Shown here one piece after another: positions 20,334-28,904 of a stretch of DNA of 64,000 nt (within the stretch, counting starts at the first letter, position 1; each line of letters opens with the position of its first letter). This DNA is from Verrucomicrobiaceae bacterium (lineage in GTDB: Bacteria > Verrucomicrobiota > Verrucomicrobiia > Verrucomicrobiales > Akkermansiaceae), in assembly GCA_027491155.1 (NCBI GenBank), contig JAIXWR010000039.1, forward strand, positions 1-64,000, read 5' to 3'. Position numbers and translations under genes: made by a program. A model generated the notes under the pieces. That model ran no database searches. It was not told the origin of the DNA and saw nothing but the letters and a program-made list of their open reading frames with translations.

Positions 20334-20480
20334 GCAGCATCGCCGCATCCCGCTTCACCGCCCCGGGATTCCAAGCTGCCGGTTCCCCGTCGCTCCTCGC
20401 TACCGCCACCCAGCCGGTAGGGTGCCACCGGAAGATCGGGACGGGCGACTTCCTTGAGGGTCATGGTGCGAGGCTGAGCG

Positions 20481-20921
20481 TCACGGCGCAGGCGACGGCG
20501 AAGCCGTTGCCTGCCGACCCGTGTTCTGCGGGTCCTTTTCGTAGGGATCAGGCGCGAGGTATTCAGCACCCTTCGTGCACTCCAATACCGAGCCATTGAT
20601 GTGAATTTCCATGAGATCACGTCCATCCTTCTCGATCACAAATGCATCTCCAGCCGGGCTCTCTTTCCACTCTATCGCGAGATCCCTCCCAAAGGGAATG
20701 GATGTCTGCTGCTTCATTTCCGATTGATCATGCGAGACAAACAACCGCAGCATGCCATCCAGTGCGTGTGGACTCTGCCCTTTGAATCTCAGCCCTCTCA
20801 CATGCGAATCCCCAGACGGAGATGTAGATTCAAGCCTGAAGCGCACCGGAAGAACCAATACCGCCCCAATGACCACTGCGACTGCGAGGACTGGAGGAAT
20901 GATGAGCAGTGCTTTCTTCAT
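20481..20921 (-). CDS. unknown membrane-anchored protein in AT-richer islet
   Basis: 146 residues from the ATG at 20921 (MKKALLIIPPVLAVAVVIGA), one N-terminal transmembrane segment at about 4-26, then a soluble domain of mixed charge. No family recognised. Codon use is more AT-rich than in neighbouring genes (for example AAA, GAT, ATT, TCA), pointing to transfer. The low-complexity C-terminus (RQATASPSPAP) is encoded by a GCAGGC...GCCTGC hairpin at 20488-20514. It is the most downstream of three co-oriented small genes separated by related palindromes. Confidence 0.6.
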   Translation of the reverse strand: MKKALLIIPPVLAVAVVIGAVLVLPVRFRLESTSPSGDSHVRGLRFKGQSPHALDGMLRLFVSHDQSEMKQQTSIPFGRDLAIEWKESPAGDAFVIEKDGRDLMEIHINGSVLECTKGAEYLAPDPYEKDPQNTGRQATASPSPAP

Positions 20922-20926
20922 TTCTT

Positions 20927-21017
20927 GCAGAAGGTATTGCTCATCCACGGCGGGGATAGGAGGCCGAATTCAAACTTGAGGGCGTTAACCGCCGTCGGAT
21001 GGAGCGTCTGGTTCGCA
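20927..21017 (-). other. attC-like palindrome A between cassette-like genes
   Basis: Read on the minus strand it starts right after the stop of the 21590 gene with GCGAACCAGACGCTC, continues CATCCGACGGCGG, crosses a GAATTC centre and closes with CCGCCGTGGATGAGC before the next start codon. That order (outer motif, CGCTC box, palindromic core, TGAGC box, outer motif) is the layout of integron attC sites, but the conserved GTTRRRY cut box is degenerate (TTCTGC). Site B shares most of the core. Confidence 0.4.
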
Positions 21018-21590
21018 TTAGTTTTTCCAGTTGATCAGGTATTGCGTCAGCTCTGGGCCGTCGTGAAATGCGAATCCAACGCGTGTGGGTGAAGCGAGGT
21101 GCAAATCACGGAATGCATCCTCGGCCACGAGTTGCTCCAAGACTCTCCAAAACGTGTATCCTACCCGGCACTTCAAAAAATCCCTGTCGGAGTCCTCGGA
21201 CTGAGGATAATCATCGCTCTCGGCAAACTCCTGCCATTCCGGGAAGAGCACTTCCGCGAAGTCAGGAAAATCAAAATCACCAGAGTTCGTGCAGACCTGG
21301 CTTACCGAGTGAACACTAAGTTGGAATATCGCGCAATCGAGCCAAGTCTTTAGTTGTTCGGTAAAGAGTTTGCGGCGGTAGGCGACGTGATAATCATATT
21401 GTTCCTTTGCGAATCGGATCGCGGAGTCCTCGGAATTCAACGCGATCATCACATAGCCGTAGCGCGGCTCTGAATCGAACCAGAAGTCGGATACTGTCAC
21501 CTCGGGATGTTCAATGCGAAATCTCGCAATAGCCTCTCGCGACTCTTCAAGAAGGCGGCTATAAGCGGTATCCCAGTTTGGCTCTTTCAT
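21018..21590 (-). CDS. unknown 190-residue acidic protein
   Basis: 190 residues, ATG start (MKEPNWDTAYSRLLEES). No signal peptide, no membrane segment, and strongly acidic in the middle (ESDDYPQSEDSDRDF). Aromatic residues are frequent (YGYVMIAL, WFDSEPRYGY), and the pattern is that of a globular cytoplasmic protein. I do not recognise the family. Codon use is AT-richer than the surrounding chromosome. It is flanked on both sides by the related palindromes A and B, each within about 10 bp of its ends, an arrangement like a gene cassette. Confidence 0.65.
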   Translation of the reverse strand: MKEPNWDTAYSRLLEESREAIARFRIEHPEVTVSDFWFDSEPRYGYVMIALNSEDSAIRFAKEQYDYHVAYRRKLFTEQLKTWLDCAIFQLSVHSVSQVCTNSGDFDFPDFAEVLFPEWQEFAESDDYPQSEDSDRDFLKCRVGYTFWRVLEQLVAEDAFRDLHLASPTRVGFAFHDGPELTQYLINWKN

Positions 21591-21596
21591 TTTCTT

Positions 21597-21689
21597 AGTG
21601 AACGCCTAGCTCATCCGCGTCGGGGAGGAAAGCTTGAATTCAAAGAAGGACGTTGCCCGCCGTTGGATGTGCCGTCTTCGCCGGGTCGT
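21597..21689 (-). other. attC-like palindrome B between cassette-like genes
   Basis: Shares with site A, on the plus strand, GCTCATCC, CGGGGA, GGA, GAATTCAAA, CGTT, CCGCCGT and GGATG in the same order and spacing. On the minus strand it ends GGATGAGCTAGGCGTTCACT, where GCGTT resembles the end of an attC. The last codons of the upstream gene run through it, as often happens in integron cassettes. Confidence 0.4.
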
Positions 21690-22066
21690 TTCTTCGTTGT
21701 GGCGGCATACTCGCTGTTGGCTACTGGCTTCAGTTCCATATTACTCCGTGTCAGCCGGATTATCTGCATTGTTGTTCCTACGTCCGTATGAACAATAGAG
21801 GGCGATACTGCGAAACGCCTCACTGTCACTCCATCCCATTGGGGTTCAGTTCCCACGACAACCTCAGATCCGACGGACAGCAATCCATTGGCCGCAGCAA
21901 TCTTGAGATCCTCAGGCAACTCGACAACTTTCGATCCGTGGAGCACCTGCCGCGTTATGCGAAACACTCCTCCTATCAAGCTACTGCCAACCATGTAGAG
22001 ATTGACGCACTCTGCCAGGATGTAGATGACGAGGAAAATACCGAAAAATGTAATTAGCGGAGGCAT
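21611..22066 (-). CDS. unknown small membrane protein
   Basis: 151 residues with an N-terminal membrane segment (LITFFGIFLVIYILAECVNL) and a soluble domain of about 110 residues. It contains RITRQVLHGSKVVELPEDL and SVGSEVVVGTEPQW, which look beta-rich. No family recognised. The C-terminal 12 residues (PSLNSSFPPRRG) are encoded by palindrome B, so the native end may have been replaced when the unit was inserted. Base composition is AT-richer than the neighbours. Confidence 0.55.
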   Translation of the reverse strand: MPPLITFFGIFLVIYILAECVNLYMVGSSLIGGVFRITRQVLHGSKVVELPEDLKIAAANGLLSVGSEVVVGTEPQWDGVTVRRFAVSPSIVHTDVGTTMQIIRLTRSNMELKPVANSEYAATTKKRPGEDGTSNGGQRPSLNSSFPPRRG

Positions 22067-22075
22067 GGTATCTCT

Positions 22076-22138
22076 GGCGAACAGTGCTCTTATGCCGCGC
22101 GCCGCAATTGCGGTGCTTCTGCAGCGTGCTGCATAAGC
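22076..22138 (-). other. palindrome C upstream of the cassette-like genes
   Basis: On the minus strand: GCTTATGCAGCACGCTGCAG, then CACCGCAATTGCGGCG, then GCATAAGAGCACTGTTCGCC. It has nested arms CTTATGC/GCATAAG and CCGCAATTGCGG, and ends TGTTCGCC ten bases before the start codon. The CGCTGCA and GAGCACTGTT boxes are attC-like, but the match is weaker than for A and B. Confidence 0.3.
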
Positions 22139-22229
22139 CCTGCAAAAGCAGCGCGGGCCGGAGGGATTCCTTCACTTTTCATTCTCTTTCGAGAGCTATT
22201 CCGAAGCGTGCCGCCTTGCAAGGGGCAAG

Positions 22230-22601
22230 TCAGGGCTTGGGACAGGCGGGGAGTTCCCCTTCGCTCTCCTCCTCCAGATTCGCCATCAGAACATGAAACA
22301 GCTCCTCGACCAGCTCGGCCGATGACCCGACCTTCCTAGCGAAAGCCGGATCCGAAAGCAGCAGCGGGTGGAGGAAATCCGAGATGCGGGCCAGGAGCAG
22401 GTCCGGATTCCGGGAGCGCAAGAGCTCCGGATCGAGCTGCTCCACCAGCGAATCATGAAGCACGGCGGCGGTTCTCAGAAGGAACTTCGCTCGCTCCTCC
22501 CGCGTGGCGGATCGCATCTGGTAGGCGTCAAAGAGGTCCGAACATCCTTCCGGGAACGCTGCTCGCGAAAGAGGCAGATCGGGATCGGGGATACGTTTCA
22601 T
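22230..22601 (-). CDS. unknown helical protein, 123 residues
   Basis: ATG at 22601 (MKRIPDPDLPLSRAAFPEG). Mostly helical by composition, with no signal peptide or membrane segment. Leu- and Glu-rich heptad-like stretches occur (ELVEELFHVLMANLEEES). Composition is back to the GC-rich style of the chromosome, so it is probably outside the cassette-like islet. No family recognised. An open extension to 22631 lacks support. Unknown function. Confidence 0.55.
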   Translation of the reverse strand: MKRIPDPDLPLSRAAFPEGCSDLFDAYQMRSATREERAKFLLRTAAVLHDSLVEQLDPELLRSRNPDLLLARISDFLHPLLLSDPAFARKVGSSAELVEELFHVLMANLEEESEGELPACPKP

Positions 22602-22928: not shown

Positions 22929-25900
22929 ATGCGCTCAACCCGGCTTATCCGCACCATCCTTTTCGCCACGGCGATCCCCGCCGTCCTCGCCCTCCCGACG
23001 CAGGCGGCCACCCTCACGGTCAATACCACCGCGGACCAACTCGACAGCCCGGCGGGCGCGGAGCTTTCCCTGCGCGAGGCCGTGCGGGACGCGGCCGATG
23101 GCGATACGATCGTCTTCGCCCCCGCGCTGGCGGGGCAGACCCTCACACTCACCACCGGTGCCGAGATCGTGTTGTCCAAGGGCGTGACCATCGACGCCTC
23201 CAGCCTGGCGCCTGCCGGACTCACCATCGACGGCGGCTCCGGCGACAACCGGATCTTCCACGTCCAAGCCGACAAGACCGTCTCGCTCGCCGGACTCACC
23301 CTCTCCGGCGGGAACGCCAACGCCTCCTCATCCGGGGCCGGTTACGGCGGGGCGATCCATACTCAGGGCAATCTGACGCTGAGCACCTGCTCGTTCACCG
23401 GAAACGCGGCTTCCGTCCGCGGTGGAGCGATCTTCGCAAACGCTGGAACCGTCAAGGTGGAGCGCTGCACCTTTTGGGGAAACACCTCCAACGGCTGGGG
23501 TGGCGCGATCCATGCCGAGTTCTGCTCGCTCGATATCTCCCAGACCACGCTGACTGGAAACACCGCGACGGACGGCGGCGCCGTGTTTTTCATGTCCAAT
23601 CCCTCCACCACCCAGTCGATTCTCGTGTCACACTGCACCATCGCCAACAACACGGCGACGACGGGACTCGGCGGTGGCATTTACGGGACGAGTTCCTCTC
23701 AATTTGTTTCCAATTCAATTATCGCCGGAAATTCAGCTCCGTTTGGCAACCCGAACATCGCTGGAAACCTCGGCAACATCGCCTCGGTGATCGTGAGCGG
23801 TAACGCCCTTCTGGCTCCGCTCGGTCACTACGGCGGCCCGACGCAGACCATGCCGCCGCTCATCGGTTCACCCGCCATCAACGGGAATTATTATTACGGG
23901 TTCGGCACCCCGCCCACAACCGACCAGCGCGGCTATCCGGTGGATGGCATCCCGGATCTCGGCGCGGCGGAGGGCAAGGTGGTGGTCACCACCGCGGTGG
24001 ATGAGACGAATCCCGTCGCAACACAAGGCGCGGGCATCTCGATCCGCGAAGCGCTGCGCGACACCCCGTCCGGCGCGGCCGTCGGTTTCGCGCCCGCGCT
24101 TTCCGGCCAGACGATCACGCTCACCACCGGCACCGAACTCTCCTTCACCAGGGGCGTGACGGTCGATGCCACCACCCTTCCGGGCGGACTCACGGTCGAT
24201 GGCGGCCCGGGCAGCAACCGCCTATTCTACATCCCCCCCGGACGGACGGCGTCCCTGCTGGGAGTCACCCTGACCGGAGGGAACGGGGCCGGCCAGGGCA
24301 CCGCGCCGGATGGAGGAGCCGTTTACAACGAGGGCACGCTGAATTTGAATGGATGCATCTTCAATGCAAACACCGCGAGCAGCTTGCGCGGCGGTGCCGT
24401 TTTCAACAACGGGACGCTGGCGATCACCGGGGGCAGCTTCAGCGCCAACACGGCGGCACTCGGGGGCGCGGTCTTCAGCCTCTCCGCGACGCTGACGGCC
24501 AACGGTGCCACCTTCTCCGGAAACTCGGCCCAAACGGGCGGCGCGATTCATGGCTCCTCCGGCGCGATGACCATCGACGCGAGCACCTTCGCCGCCAACT
24601 CCGCCGGACAAGGCGGCGCGATTCATCATCCCGCGGGATCGCTCACCGTGACCGCGAGCACTTTCTCCAATAACACCGCCACCGGGGACGGCGGTGCGAT
24701 CCAAACGCCGGCCGCCGCGCTGACGATCAACCGGAGCCGTTTCACGGCGAACTCGGCGAATGCCGGCGGCGCGATCCATGGCGGCTCCGGCGCGGTGGGA
24801 ATCACCCAGACCGCCCTGACCGGCAACACCGCCGGGCAGGACGGCGGCGCGATCCGCTGCGGCTCCGGCGCGCTGACTCTCAGCCAGTCCACCCTCTCGG
24901 GAAACATGGCGAACCAGCGCGGTGGCGCGATCCACAGCCCGTCGGCAGGGGTATCGATCAACCGTTGCACGCTCACCCAGAATTCCGCGAGCGAAGGCGG
25001 TGCCATCCACGGCGGTTCCTCACCCAACTCGATCAACCGCTCCACCATCACCGGCAATTCCGCGACCGGCGGTGGCGGCGGTGTTCATATCGCGGGCGGT
25101 GGTTTCTCGCTCACCAATTCGATCCTCACCGGCAATACGGGTCCTGCAGGCGCGGAGAATTCCACCGGAACCCTCACACCCGCCGGCGCGAATCTCACCA
25201 GCGGCAGCCCGCAGTTGAACCCGCTCGGAGATTACGGCGGCCTCACGCAGACCATGCCCCCGCTGGCCGGCTCGCCCGCCATCAACGCCACCGTCGGTTC
25301 CACGTTTTCCACCGACCAGCGCGGCTTCCCGTCATCCGGAAAAGCGGACCTCGGCGCCGCGGAAGGTGCGACGGTGGTCACCACTCTCGCCGATCAATCG
25401 GACACCGACGCGGCTTCAGGAGGCGGCATCTCCCTGCGCGAAGCCATCCGCGACACCCCGGCCAATACGGGTATCACCTTCCTCCCAAGCCTCTCGGGGC
25501 AAACAATCACCCTGACCTCCGCCGCGGAAATCGTGATCACCCGGAACCTCGTGATCGACGCCAGCGCGCTCGCGGGCGGCCTGACCATCAATGGCGGCCC
25601 GGGCGACAACCGTATCTTCAGCGTGAATGCCGGCCAGAGCCTTTCCCTGACCGGACTGACCCTCACCGGCGGGGACGGCACCGGTTCGATCAGCTCCTTT
25701 AACGGAGGTGCCATTTACAGTGCGGGTTTCCTGACGCTCACCCGCTGCACCGTGTCCGGCAATACGGCCTCATCCGGTGCCATCTACGGCGCAGCCGGCA
25801 CGCTCACGCTGCTGGAATGCACGTTCTCCGGAAACAACGGGCAATTCGGCGGCGGGGTGTATTCCGCCGCGATTGCGACCACGATCACCCAGTGCACTTT

Positions 25901-28900
25901 TTCCGCCAACACCGCGCAGCGGGGATCCGCCATCTACGGCAACGGCGGCACGCTGACCGTGCAAAGCAGCGTCTTCTCGGGGAACTCGTCCAGCGACATG
26001 GGGGCACTGGCCCTCTTCTCGACCACCGCGACGATCGAAGGATCTGTCTTTTCAGGAAACTCGGCGTCCCGGGGCGGCGCGCTCTACCATGGCAGCGGGT
26101 CCAACACCACCCTCCTGCGGAGCACCTTCAACGGCAACACGGCTACCGGCGAAGGCGGCGCGATCGCGGGCAGCTCTCCCATCAGCATTCAACAATGCAC
26201 CCTTTCCGGGAATTCCGCACCGTCGGCCGGCGCGATCCAGGTCAACACTTCGACCACCACGCTCGTGCAAAGCACGGTTTCGAACAATTCGGCAACGTCC
26301 CAGGGAGGCGGTGTCCGGGTCTCCGCCGGCACCTTCACGTTGACGAACTCGATTCTCGCCGGAAACACCGCCGGGACCGCGGGAACGGAGAACTTTGCAG
26401 GCACCATCAATGCCAGCGGTTCCAATTTCACCAGCGGCGATCCGAAGCTCGCCCAACTCGGCAACTACGGCGGCCCGACTCAAACCATGCCGCCCTCGCC
26501 CGACTCACCGGTCGTCGATGCCGGCGCGACCACTGCCATCACCACCGACCAGCGCGGCCTGGCCCGTGTGCTCGGGGCCGCCGTGGACCTCGGCGCCGTG
26601 GAATCCGGCCATCCCATCACCCCGCTTCTGGTCACGACCACGGCGGATGAAAACGATGGCATCGGCACCGGCAACATCTCGCTCCGAGAGGCCGTCGCCT
26701 TCGCCCCGGCGGGCTCCACCATTGCCTTCGCCCCCGCGCTCTCCGGCCAGACGATCACCCTCACCAGCGGCGCGGAGATCGTTCTCACCCGCAACGTCAC
26801 CATCGACGCCACCGGCCTTCCCGGAGCCCTCATCCTCCATGGCGGCACGTCCAGCAACCGGCTGTTTTCCGTCAGCACCGGCCACACGGTCTCGCTGCTC
26901 GGCCTCACGCTCAGCGGTGGAAATGGCACGGGCGCGGACAGCTCCGGCGACGGTGCGGCCATCTTGAACCGCGGCACGCTCACGCTGACCCGCTGCACGC
27001 TCTCTGGAAACAGTTCGGGCAGCGATCGCGGCGGAGCGGTTTTCAACACCGGCACGCTCACCGTTCAGCAATGCACGCTCTCCGGCAACGCCGCTCCGGT
27101 GGGTGGTGCCATCGCCAGCACATCCGGGTCCGTCACGATCCTCCACAGCACCGTCTCCGCGAACACCGCGACGGACGACGGAGGCGGAATCGCCATCGCC
27201 GGCGGAACTTGCACGCTGACCCACTCGATCGTTGCCGGAAACCTCTCCAACAACGGCGCGACCTCCAACATCAGCGGCACGGTCACCTCGACCGGCGCCA
27301 ATCTAACAAGCGGCAGCCCGCAGCTCGCCGCCCTTGGCAACTACGGCGGCCCCATGCGAACCATGCCACCGCTGGCCGCATCCCCCGCCGTTGATGCGGC
27401 CACGGGCTCCGGCATCACCACCGACCAGCGCGGCCTCGCCGTCTTCAACACACCCGACATCGGCGCGACGGAAAGCGTCTCGGTGGTGACCACGCTTGCC
27501 GACGAACTCGATGCCGTGAGCACCGCCGGCACCGGGGTTTCCCTCCGGGAAGCCGTCCGCGACACCCCGGCCGGCTCCACCGTGGCTTTCGGCTCCGCAT
27601 TGTCCGGACAAGAGATTTCACTCACCCTCGGATCGGAAATCCTGTTGGCGAAAGACGTGACAATCGACGCTGGCAGTCTGCCCGACGGCATCAACCTCTC
27701 TTCGGGAGGCGGAACGAGCCGCATCTTCCGCATCGGTGGCGATCGAACCGTCTTCCTCACCCATCTTATCTTGATCGCCGGCTCGGGCATTGGTCCGGTT
27801 GGACCGGCAGGCGGTGGCGCCATCTACAACGAAGGCACCCTCAGCCTGACCCGCTGCCAGTTCTTCGGAAACAGCGTGCCGGAAGGCGCTGATGGCGGCG
27901 CGATCCACAGCTTCGGCACGCTCACCGCCCTCGGATGCAGCTTCAACAACAACAGCGCAAACCTCGGAGCAGCCATCTACGCCACCGGCATGGTCACGCT
28001 GGACCAATGCGAAGTCGCATGGAATTTTGCGACCTTGGACGGCGGTGGCATCCACAGCATCGGTCCGCTCACCATCAGGCGCTCCACGCTCTCCAGGAAC
28101 CAGGCAGGCAACGGCGGTGCGATCTATCACGGGCCCTCCACCATGAACATCGAGCGCTGCACCATCTCCGATAACAACGCGGACTTCTCCGGCGGTGGCG
28201 TCTACACCAGCTTTTCGAATTTCACCCTGCGTCACTCGATCATCGCCGGCAACACCGCCGGTGACCCGGGAATGGAGAATACCAGTGGTGCCTTCACCGC
28301 CACCGGGGCCAACGTGACGGGCGGCAATCCGCTACTCGGACCACTCGACTACTATGGCGGCCGTACCCGGACCATGGTCCTTCTCCCCGGCAGCCCGGCC
28401 CTCAACACCGCTGCCGGCAGCACCTTCACCAGCGACCAGCGCTCCCTCCCGATCATCGGAACGCCGGACATCGGCGCCCATGAGGCGGGCACCGTCGTGG
28501 ACTACGACGCCTGGGTCCTGGAAGCCACCGGTACGGCCATTCCCTTTTTCACCGACAGCGACGGCGACGGCATGGCTGCCGGTCTCGAATACGCCATCCG
28601 CGGCGATCTTTTCCAGAACGACCGGCCGCTCGCGCCCACGATCGCTCCGGTGAGCGGCGGCCACGCCTTCCGCTTCCGCTACCGGGCCTCCGCCCCGGAT
28701 GTTTTCTACATCGTGCAGCGCAGCCCGGATCTCGGCCAGACCAGCCGATGGCAAAGTGTTTATTCCTTCAGCGGCAGATCCGGGACCGGGGGTGGCATTT
28801 CAGGCGTGACCGCCGTGGTGGATCCCGTCACCGAAACCATCACCGTCACCGATTCAATCACCGGGCCGAAGCACTTCTGGCGTCTCTATCCCGTCCAGAA

Positions 28901-28904
28901 CTAA
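22929..28904 (+). CDS. giant secreted CSLREA/beta-helix repeat protein
   Basis: 1991 residues from the ATG at 22929 (MRSTRLIRTILFATAIPAVL signal peptide, cleavage near TQAA). Five modules begin near residues 28, 350, 814, 1233 and 1518. Each opens with a CSLREA-type segment (VTTLADQ..., ISLREAVRDT, IVFAPALSGQTITLT), continues as right-handed parallel beta-helix repeats rich in GGAI and FSGN/TLSGN motifs, and closes with a choice-of-anchor-Q-like segment (GNYGGPTQTMPPL, TTDQRGL, DLGAVE). The GGA[IV] plus FxxN signature is that of chlamydial polymorphic membrane proteins. The last 135 residues (DSDGDGMAAGLEYA ... FYIVQRSPDL) form a C-terminal domain common in verrucomicrobial secreted proteins; no autotransporter barrel is seen. 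Likely a surface or extracellular protein. Confidence 0.88.
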   Translation: MRSTRLIRTILFATAIPAVLALPTQAATLTVNTTADQLDSPAGAELSLREAVRDAADGDTIVFAPALAGQTLTLTTGAEIVLSKGVTIDASSLAPAGLTIDGGSGDNRIFHVQADKTVSLAGLTLSGGNANASSSGAGYGGAIHTQGNLTLSTCSFTGNAASVRGGAIFANAGTVKVERCTFWGNTSNGWGGAIHAEFCSLDISQTTLTGNTATDGGAVFFMSNPSTTQSILVSHCTIANNTATTGLGGGIYGTSSSQFVSNSIIAGNSAPFGNPNIAGNLGNIASVIVSGNALLAPLGHYGGPTQTMPPLIGSPAINGNYYYGFGTPPTTDQRGYPVDGIPDLGAAEGKVVVTTAVDETNPVATQGAGISIREALRDTPSGAAVGFAPALSGQTITLTTGTELSFTRGVTVDATTLPGGLTVDGGPGSNRLFYIPPGRTASLLGVTLTGGNGAGQGTAPDGGAVYNEGTLNLNGCIFNANTASSLRGGAVFNNGTLAITGGSFSANTAALGGAVFSLSATLTANGATFSGNSAQTGGAIHGSSGAMTIDASTFAANSAGQGGAIHHPAGSLTVTASTFSNNTATGDGGAIQTPAAALTINRSRFTANSANAGGAIHGGSGAVGITQTALTGNTAGQDGGAIRCGSGALTLSQSTLSGNMANQRGGAIHSPSAGVSINRCTLTQNSASEGGAIHGGSSPNSINRSTITGNSATGGGGGVHIAGGGFSLTNSILTGNTGPAGAENSTGTLTPAGANLTSGSPQLNPLGDYGGLTQTMPPLAGSPAINATVGSTFSTDQRGFPSSGKADLGAAEGATVVTTLADQSDTDAASGGGISLREAIRDTPANTGITFLPSLSGQTITLTSAAEIVITRNLVIDASALAGGLTINGGPGDNRIFSVNAGQSLSLTGLTLTGGDGTGSISSFNGGAIYSAGFLTLTRCTVSGNTASSGAIYGAAGTLTLLECTFSGNNGQFGGGVYSAAIATTITQCTFSANTAQRGSAIYGNGGTLTVQSSVFSGNSSSDMGALALFSTTATIEGSVFSGNSASRGGALYHGSGSNTTLLRSTFNGNTATGEGGAIAGSSPISIQQCTLSGNSAPSAGAIQVNTSTTTLVQSTVSNNSATSQGGGVRVSAGTFTLTNSILAGNTAGTAGTENFAGTINASGSNFTSGDPKLAQLGNYGGPTQTMPPSPDSPVVDAGATTAITTDQRGLARVLGAAVDLGAVESGHPITPLLVTTTADENDGIGTGNISLREAVAFAPAGSTIAFAPALSGQTITLTSGAEIVLTRNVTIDATGLPGALILHGGTSSNRLFSVSTGHTVSLLGLTLSGGNGTGADSSGDGAAILNRGTLTLTRCTLSGNSSGSDRGGAVFNTGTLTVQQCTLSGNAAPVGGAIASTSGSVTILHSTVSANTATDDGGGIAIAGGTCTLTHSIVAGNLSNNGATSNISGTVTSTGANLTSGSPQLAALGNYGGPMRTMPPLAASPAVDAATGSGITTDQRGLAVFNTPDIGATESVSVVTTLADELDAVSTAGTGVSLREAVRDTPAGSTVAFGSALSGQEISLTLGSEILLAKDVTIDAGSLPDGINLSSGGGTSRIFRIGGDRTVFLTHLILIAGSGIGPVGPAGGGAIYNEGTLSLTRCQFFGNSVPEGADGGAIHSFGTLTALGCSFNNNSANLGAAIYATGMVTLDQCEVAWNFATLDGGGIHSIGPLTIRRSTLSRNQAGNGGAIYHGPSTMNIERCTISDNNADFSGGGVYTSFSNFTLRHSIIAGNTAGDPGMENTSGAFTATGANVTGGNPLLGPLDYYGGRTRTMVLLPGSPALNTAAGSTFTSDQRSLPIIGTPDIGAHEAGTVVDYDAWVLEATGTAIPFFTDSDGDGMAAGLEYAIRGDLFQNDRPLAPTIAPVSGGHAFRFRYRASAPDVFYIVQRSPDLGQTSRWQSVYSFSGRSGTGGGISGVTAVVDPVTETITVTDSITGPKHFWRLYPVQN

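Follow-up and report, generated by a model that had tools for sequence, protein, structure and literature searches.

The stretch of DNA analysed here (the window, 64,000 nucleotides) belongs to a draft genome of 46 contigs and 5.73 Mb, and the islet under study lies 20 kb inside a contig of 244 kb. The initial annotation had described an AT-richer islet of three small genes on one strand, and both features hold. The G+C content is 0.52-0.54 over positions 20501-22000 compared with about 0.65-0.70 in the surroundings, and three open reading frames (20481-20921, 21018-21590 and 21611-22066) all lie on the minus strand. They are carried by three cassettes of an integrase-less array that extends over 20473-22081, also on the minus strand. 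Cassette 3, the first in the array (21603-22081), holds gene 21611-22066 and encodes a protein of 151 amino acids with an N-terminal hydrophobic stretch; a copy of this cassette is present at C23:220690-221113 with 86% identity, and its gene shows a dN/dS of 0.34, that is, purifying selection. Cassette 2 (20933-21602) holds gene 21018-21590, which encodes 190 amino acids of no known family, and cassette 1, the last in the array (20473-20932), holds gene 20481-20921, which encodes 146 amino acids with an N-terminal hydrophobic stretch and likewise of no known family. Searches of the cassette proteins against Pfam, NCBIfam and PADLOC gave no significant match, the cassette 2 protein had no confirmed relatives within the genome collection, and an Rfam scan of the whole window gave no match. 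Elsewhere in the window, an open reading frame of about 2000 codons (22932-28904, plus strand) contains repeated motifs that, by eye, are typical of secreted or surface polymorphic-outer-membrane-like proteins.

The cassettes are separated by sites of the attC type. A first covariance model, built from four attC candidates of genome G123 and one of contig C17 with the window excluded, matched junction 1 (20927-21017, minus strand; 63.6 bits, E 1.3e-18) and junction 2 (21597-21682, minus strand; 56.1 bits, E 4.4e-16) from end to end, and these were its only two matches over the 64-kb window. The two full-length matches are spaced 580 bp apart and share a 54-nt block with 70% identity. With a widened model of 43 sites, from which the window sites were again excluded, a weak and degenerate third attC-like site was detected at the array end (20473-20529, minus strand; 20.6 bits, E 0.0014). 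The 43-site model also matched a further attC at 326-451 on the plus strand, behind a partial open reading frame at the very start of the contig (32.8 bits, E 2.9e-7). Covariation over the 43 sites comprises double changes in 20 of 23 pairs, and 210 double-change cells were counted vs 70 +/- 6 in shuffles, a result somewhat favoured by an alignment that was fitted to the structure; the signal was lost when the pairing partners were slid by one to three columns. In the predicted bottom-strand folds, the better-kept sites show bulged bases and pairing in both the outer and the inner boxes, as in attC, and the outer part of junction 2 is without that predicted fold.

The textbook outer box of attC is GTTRRRY, and the outer boxes in this clade read GGCGAAC...GTTCGCC rather than that consensus. 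At junction 1 the cut triplet is CTT instead of GTT. At junction 2 the left outer box is GGCGAAG in place of GGCGAAC, and the right box is GTTCACT with its GTT intact. Neither junction therefore combines an intact GTT in the R' box with an AAC in the R'' box. As outer-box lesions affect both main attC sites, the present mobility of the islet cassettes is doubtful, and the islet copy, judged by its boxes, may now be immobile or hard to mobilise. Such lesions bear on present mobility and not on descent, and intact boxes are not required for calling a CALIN, the name given to a cluster of attC sites lacking an integron integrase (PMC9024848). The initial annotation had read the junctions, placed at 20927-21017 and 21597-21689, as degenerate attC sites of a possible CALIN that share an ordered series of boxes and keep the cut box poorly. 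Its boundaries agree with those of our model within a few bases, the shared boxes are confirmed, as is the common 54-nt block, and the damage to the cut box is the CTT and GGCGAAG just described. The reading as a whole is supported by a model of our own (not that of IntegronFinder) that is independent of the window and finds both junctions at full length, by the covariation, by the presence of the same attC family behind the C17 integrase and in the long array of G123, and by a cassette copy whose breakpoint falls at the cassette start.

The description as a cassette array without integrase also stands, but the array is longer than stated, with the weak third site at 20473-20529 at one end and a separate recombination site, cut between 22082 and 22081, at its start. 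This start had been overlooked: an attI-like leader precedes the cassettes, so the islet is not a bare attC cluster. The leader, which we assign to family P, covers 22077-22261 on the minus strand (185 bp) and is 91% identical to C5:1993-2176, where it precedes other cassettes than those of the window. Its palindromic core is found again ahead of the first cassette-like gene on contigs C45 and C3 and in genomes G119, G120 and G056. Several parts can be recognised within it, all on the minus strand. A promoter-like sequence, TTGCAA-N17-TAGCTC, is found at 22193-22221 with its -35 box 140 nt before the cut. A short leader open reading frame of 30 amino acids (MKSEGIPPARAAFAGLMQHAAEAPQLRRAA), whose coding status is uncertain, occupies 22090-22182 and its stop ends 8 nt before the cut. 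The inverted repeat CTTATGC...GCATAAG (22089-22137) lies directly before the cut. The crossover itself, GCACTG^TTCGCC between 22082 and 22081, was deduced from the cassette 3 copy on C23, which begins matching at ACTG^TT behind a different leader; in the window the leader likewise ends, and the cassette homology begins, at CTG^TT before the first cassette. The leader probably transcribes the first cassette from a putatively active promoter.

Leaders of this kind recur throughout the genome. By scanning for RVRCTGTT upstream of the first attC (background, 0.23 matches per 1700 nt), we found that about 14 arrays start behind one of four recurrent leader families, I, P, Q and R, that end in CTG^TT, and about 9 of the 24 arrays of the genome are without a recognisable leader. 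Family I is the attI region of the integrase on C17; it is found beside that integrase and on C11, C26 and C5 (C5b), with about 253-271 nt of homology up to the cut, and tblastn gave no trace of an integrase at the copies on C11, C26 and C5b. Family P includes the leaders of the window, C5a, C45 and C3a. Family Q includes those of C23, C24 and C10, and is also found beside an integrase in G076, a genome of a second genus. Family R includes C9, C26b and perhaps C34a. Of the 260 genomes of the taxonomic family that were searched, four contain family P, all of them from the genus and with 13 copies between them; when the positions of these copies were compared with the integrase matches, none of the 13 adjoined an integrase. 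Because no P copy lies beside any integrase, the term attI is applied to family P by analogy.

Families P and Q resemble each other in layout. A promoter-like TTG-N17-TA is placed at -139 to -142 from the cut in 4 of 9 P leaders and 10 of 13 Q leaders, and at most one copy has it in any other 9-nt interval. P and Q leaders often contain a short open reading frame that stops 5-9 nt before the cut. All eight full-length copies of family Q have their ATG 105 nt from the cut, but three carry premature stops, which weaken the idea that the leader open reading frame encodes a conserved peptide. Families I, P and Q each have an inverted repeat whose end lies about 8-14 nt ahead of the cut, and its sequence is unrelated from one family to the next. 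Among the leader copies, none was seen that clearly lacks a cassette-like gene; several leaders in G119 and G120 without a detected attC keep a small same-strand open reading frame after the cut, and therefore none can be called empty.

The initial annotation had seen no integrase in the window, which is consistent with the genome-wide search for intI: the only integron integrase above the family cut-off is on the 3.7-kb contig C17 (328 bits; cut-off, 265), although a further one could lie in an assembly gap of the 46-contig draft. Directly behind the C17 integrase are attC sites of the same family as those of the window. In total, about 40 attC sites are distributed over more than 20 places of the genome, in arrays of one to five, and many are singletons or pairs well inside long contigs. 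Among genomes of the same genus, the number of attC sites ranges from none to more than 40, and G056 and G006 have attC sites with no integrase match in either genome. A long attC array was also observed in another family of the order (G123:C1 38000-76000; L104, L063 and L105), and no integron integrase was found in that genome, which is 99% complete. In addition, several cassette-bearing contigs end in a repeat of about 120 bp with 97-99% identity, seen at 1-119 of the window and on C17, C6 and C41; its edge, GAATGGCACGGGATTAAGC, resembles the end of an insertion sequence, and the repeat probably broke the assembly.

At its far end, the array of the window stops at the truncated 5' end of a gene (20338-20467, minus strand) that is longer at C5:~100-460, and this flank too is common to C5. 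A segment with the leader, the array position and the gene start thus seems to have been copied. In G119 and G120, the neighbouring DUF1501-like gene is present at 93% identity and the islet is absent, but the sequence beyond the gene is wholly different or rearranged, so that no clean empty site was obtained. The flanks of the array on C24 gave paralogous matches and no clean empty site either; at about position 8039 of L089 (C24), the flank right after the attC aligns within a gene that is uninterrupted in G119:C36, and the C24 array therefore seems to end inside a broken gene.

How did the cassettes come to lie behind these leaders? One set of observations concerns the cut. Between ACTG^TT and the left outer attC box, cassette 3 matches its copy on C23 at 86% identity; the two stand behind leader P in the window and behind leader Q on C23, and both start exactly at the cut. 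Beyond that box they differ, so that the same gene carries two unrelated attC cores (window 21603-22081; L061:1691-2114), as if attC sites had been exchanged. In sister genomes, four equivalent chromosomal sites with upstream flanks 86-93% identical carry different first cassettes, which argues that cassettes were exchanged at platforms that lack their own integrase gene. At one equivalent pair, G119:C152 (L139) and G120:C69 (L183), the flank is 86% identical and the leaders belong to families Q and P, respectively. Such exchange of cassettes does not prove that the C17 integrase acted; an integrase once next to the array and since lost may have done so.

We consider it probable that the islet is an integrase-less integron platform, in which an attI-like leader and three minus-strand cassettes were joined by an integrase encoded elsewhere. 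Its leader of about 185 bp carries promoter-like sequence, a short open reading frame and a hairpin, up to the end CTG^TT. Cassettes would be joined at G^TT by an integron integrase from elsewhere, most simply the C17 enzyme or a former relative, and transcription of the first cassette would probably be driven by the leader. Platforms of this kind, with leaders of four families, are spread through this genome and the sister species. The attI of the C17 integrase in one family, an integrase beside another and the recurrence of the leaders together point to integrase-less attI-like platforms dispersed in the genome and probably served in trans. From these patterns we infer both an action in trans of the C17 integrase on family P and the manner in which the leaders spread.

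The alternative that survives best is decay of ordinary integrons, in which each array was once a full intI-attI-array unit that was copied or transferred and then lost intI by deletion, leaving leaders that are old attI sites with nothing acting in trans. Loss of intI is one of the proposed origins of CALINs, along with off-target insertion and rearrangement (PMC8618304). It would leave what is seen in family I, which is homologous to the whole stretch between the start of the C17 intI and the cut, and in family Q with its neighbouring intI in G076, and the lesions in the islet's attC sites suit a decaying array. Against decay, tblastn revealed no intI remnant at any examined array of the genome, and family P stands beside intI in none of its 13 copies in four genomes. 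The differing cassettes at equivalent integrase-less sites of sister genomes would moreover require that cassettes were exchanged ahead of every loss, or that losses occurred repeatedly in parallel. We therefore regard decay as unlikely, though it deserves serious weight.

Rather less likely is that the cassettes were inserted off-target at ordinary chromosomal sites (attG-type) and that the leaders recur as chromosomal repeats which by chance suit the integrase. Insertion of this kind belongs to the proposed CALIN origins named above and would fit arrays that are dispersed, short and distant from the integrase, some of them without a recognisable leader; for these leader-less arrays it may hold. 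It fits poorly with about 14 arrays behind four recurrent families, one being the attI of the genome's own integrase and one adjoining an integrase in another genus, with the promoter-like box that P and Q have at a common distance from the cut, and with the failure to find a leader copy that clearly lacks a cassette-like gene. Finally, although the proteins are all orphans and the R boxes imperfect, it is highly improbable that the islet has nothing to do with integrons and consists of orphan genes separated by terminators, by palindromes that arose by chance or by some other repeat, a reading we reject on the independent-model E-values, the covariation over 43 sites, the attC family common to the C17 integron and the single cassette copied alone to C23.

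Beyond the platform reading of the islet itself, a broader arrangement is a real but tentative possibility: a distributed integron, in which promoter-bearing, attI-like leader repeats of several families, spread along one chromosome, would be integrase-free docking and expression sites for one to a few cassettes each. They would be served in trans by a single integrase elsewhere, or currently by none, as in G056, and leader P would be maintained as a receptor whether or not an integrase lies next to it. Genome surveys find attC clusters without integrase in numbers similar to those of complete integrons, and attI sites outside class 1 are poorly known and not searched by the standard tool (PMC9024848). 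If many CALINs sit behind promoter-bearing attI-like leaders, they are not only debris, and one integrase could write cassettes into many chromosomal places, with expression starting at each. The leaders also offer a searchable signature for attI sites that the standard tool misses outside class 1. A literature search, with subscription papers mostly outside its reach, returned no account of dispersed promoter-bearing attI-like leaders without an integrase and no paper linking this genus-level group with integron integrases.

Compared with known systems, the islet shares features with several. The attI1 site of class 1 integrons has a leader open reading frame, ORF-11. Similarly, the short open reading frame of the window stops just before the cut and could aid translation of the first cassette, but the leader sequence is unrelated, a strong hairpin precedes the cut and the reading frame is only putatively coding. 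Insertion of cassettes into genomes at attG sites outside integrons has been reported (Loot et al. 2024, as cited in PMC12901181). The likeness lies in chromosomal cassettes outside an integron, presumably placed by an integrase in trans, and the difference in the receptor, which is a recurrent leader family here and varied, unrelated genomic sequences there. A sedentary chromosomal integron is resembled in that leader family I is the attI of the complete C17 integron, the attC family is the same and the cassettes are oriented away from the leader; unlike such an integron, or any complete one, neither the array of the window nor about 13 other leader-bearing arrays have intI beside them. The closest match is the CALIN. 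The islet has at least two tandem attC sites, same-strand cassette genes and no intI nearby, and the genome has many such clusters, whereas a recurrent attI-like leader with promoter-like boxes lies outside the CALIN definition and is not sought by the standard tool. The islet itself is thus an ordinary object, a small CALIN, set apart by its leader and by the way such leaders are repeated across the genome.
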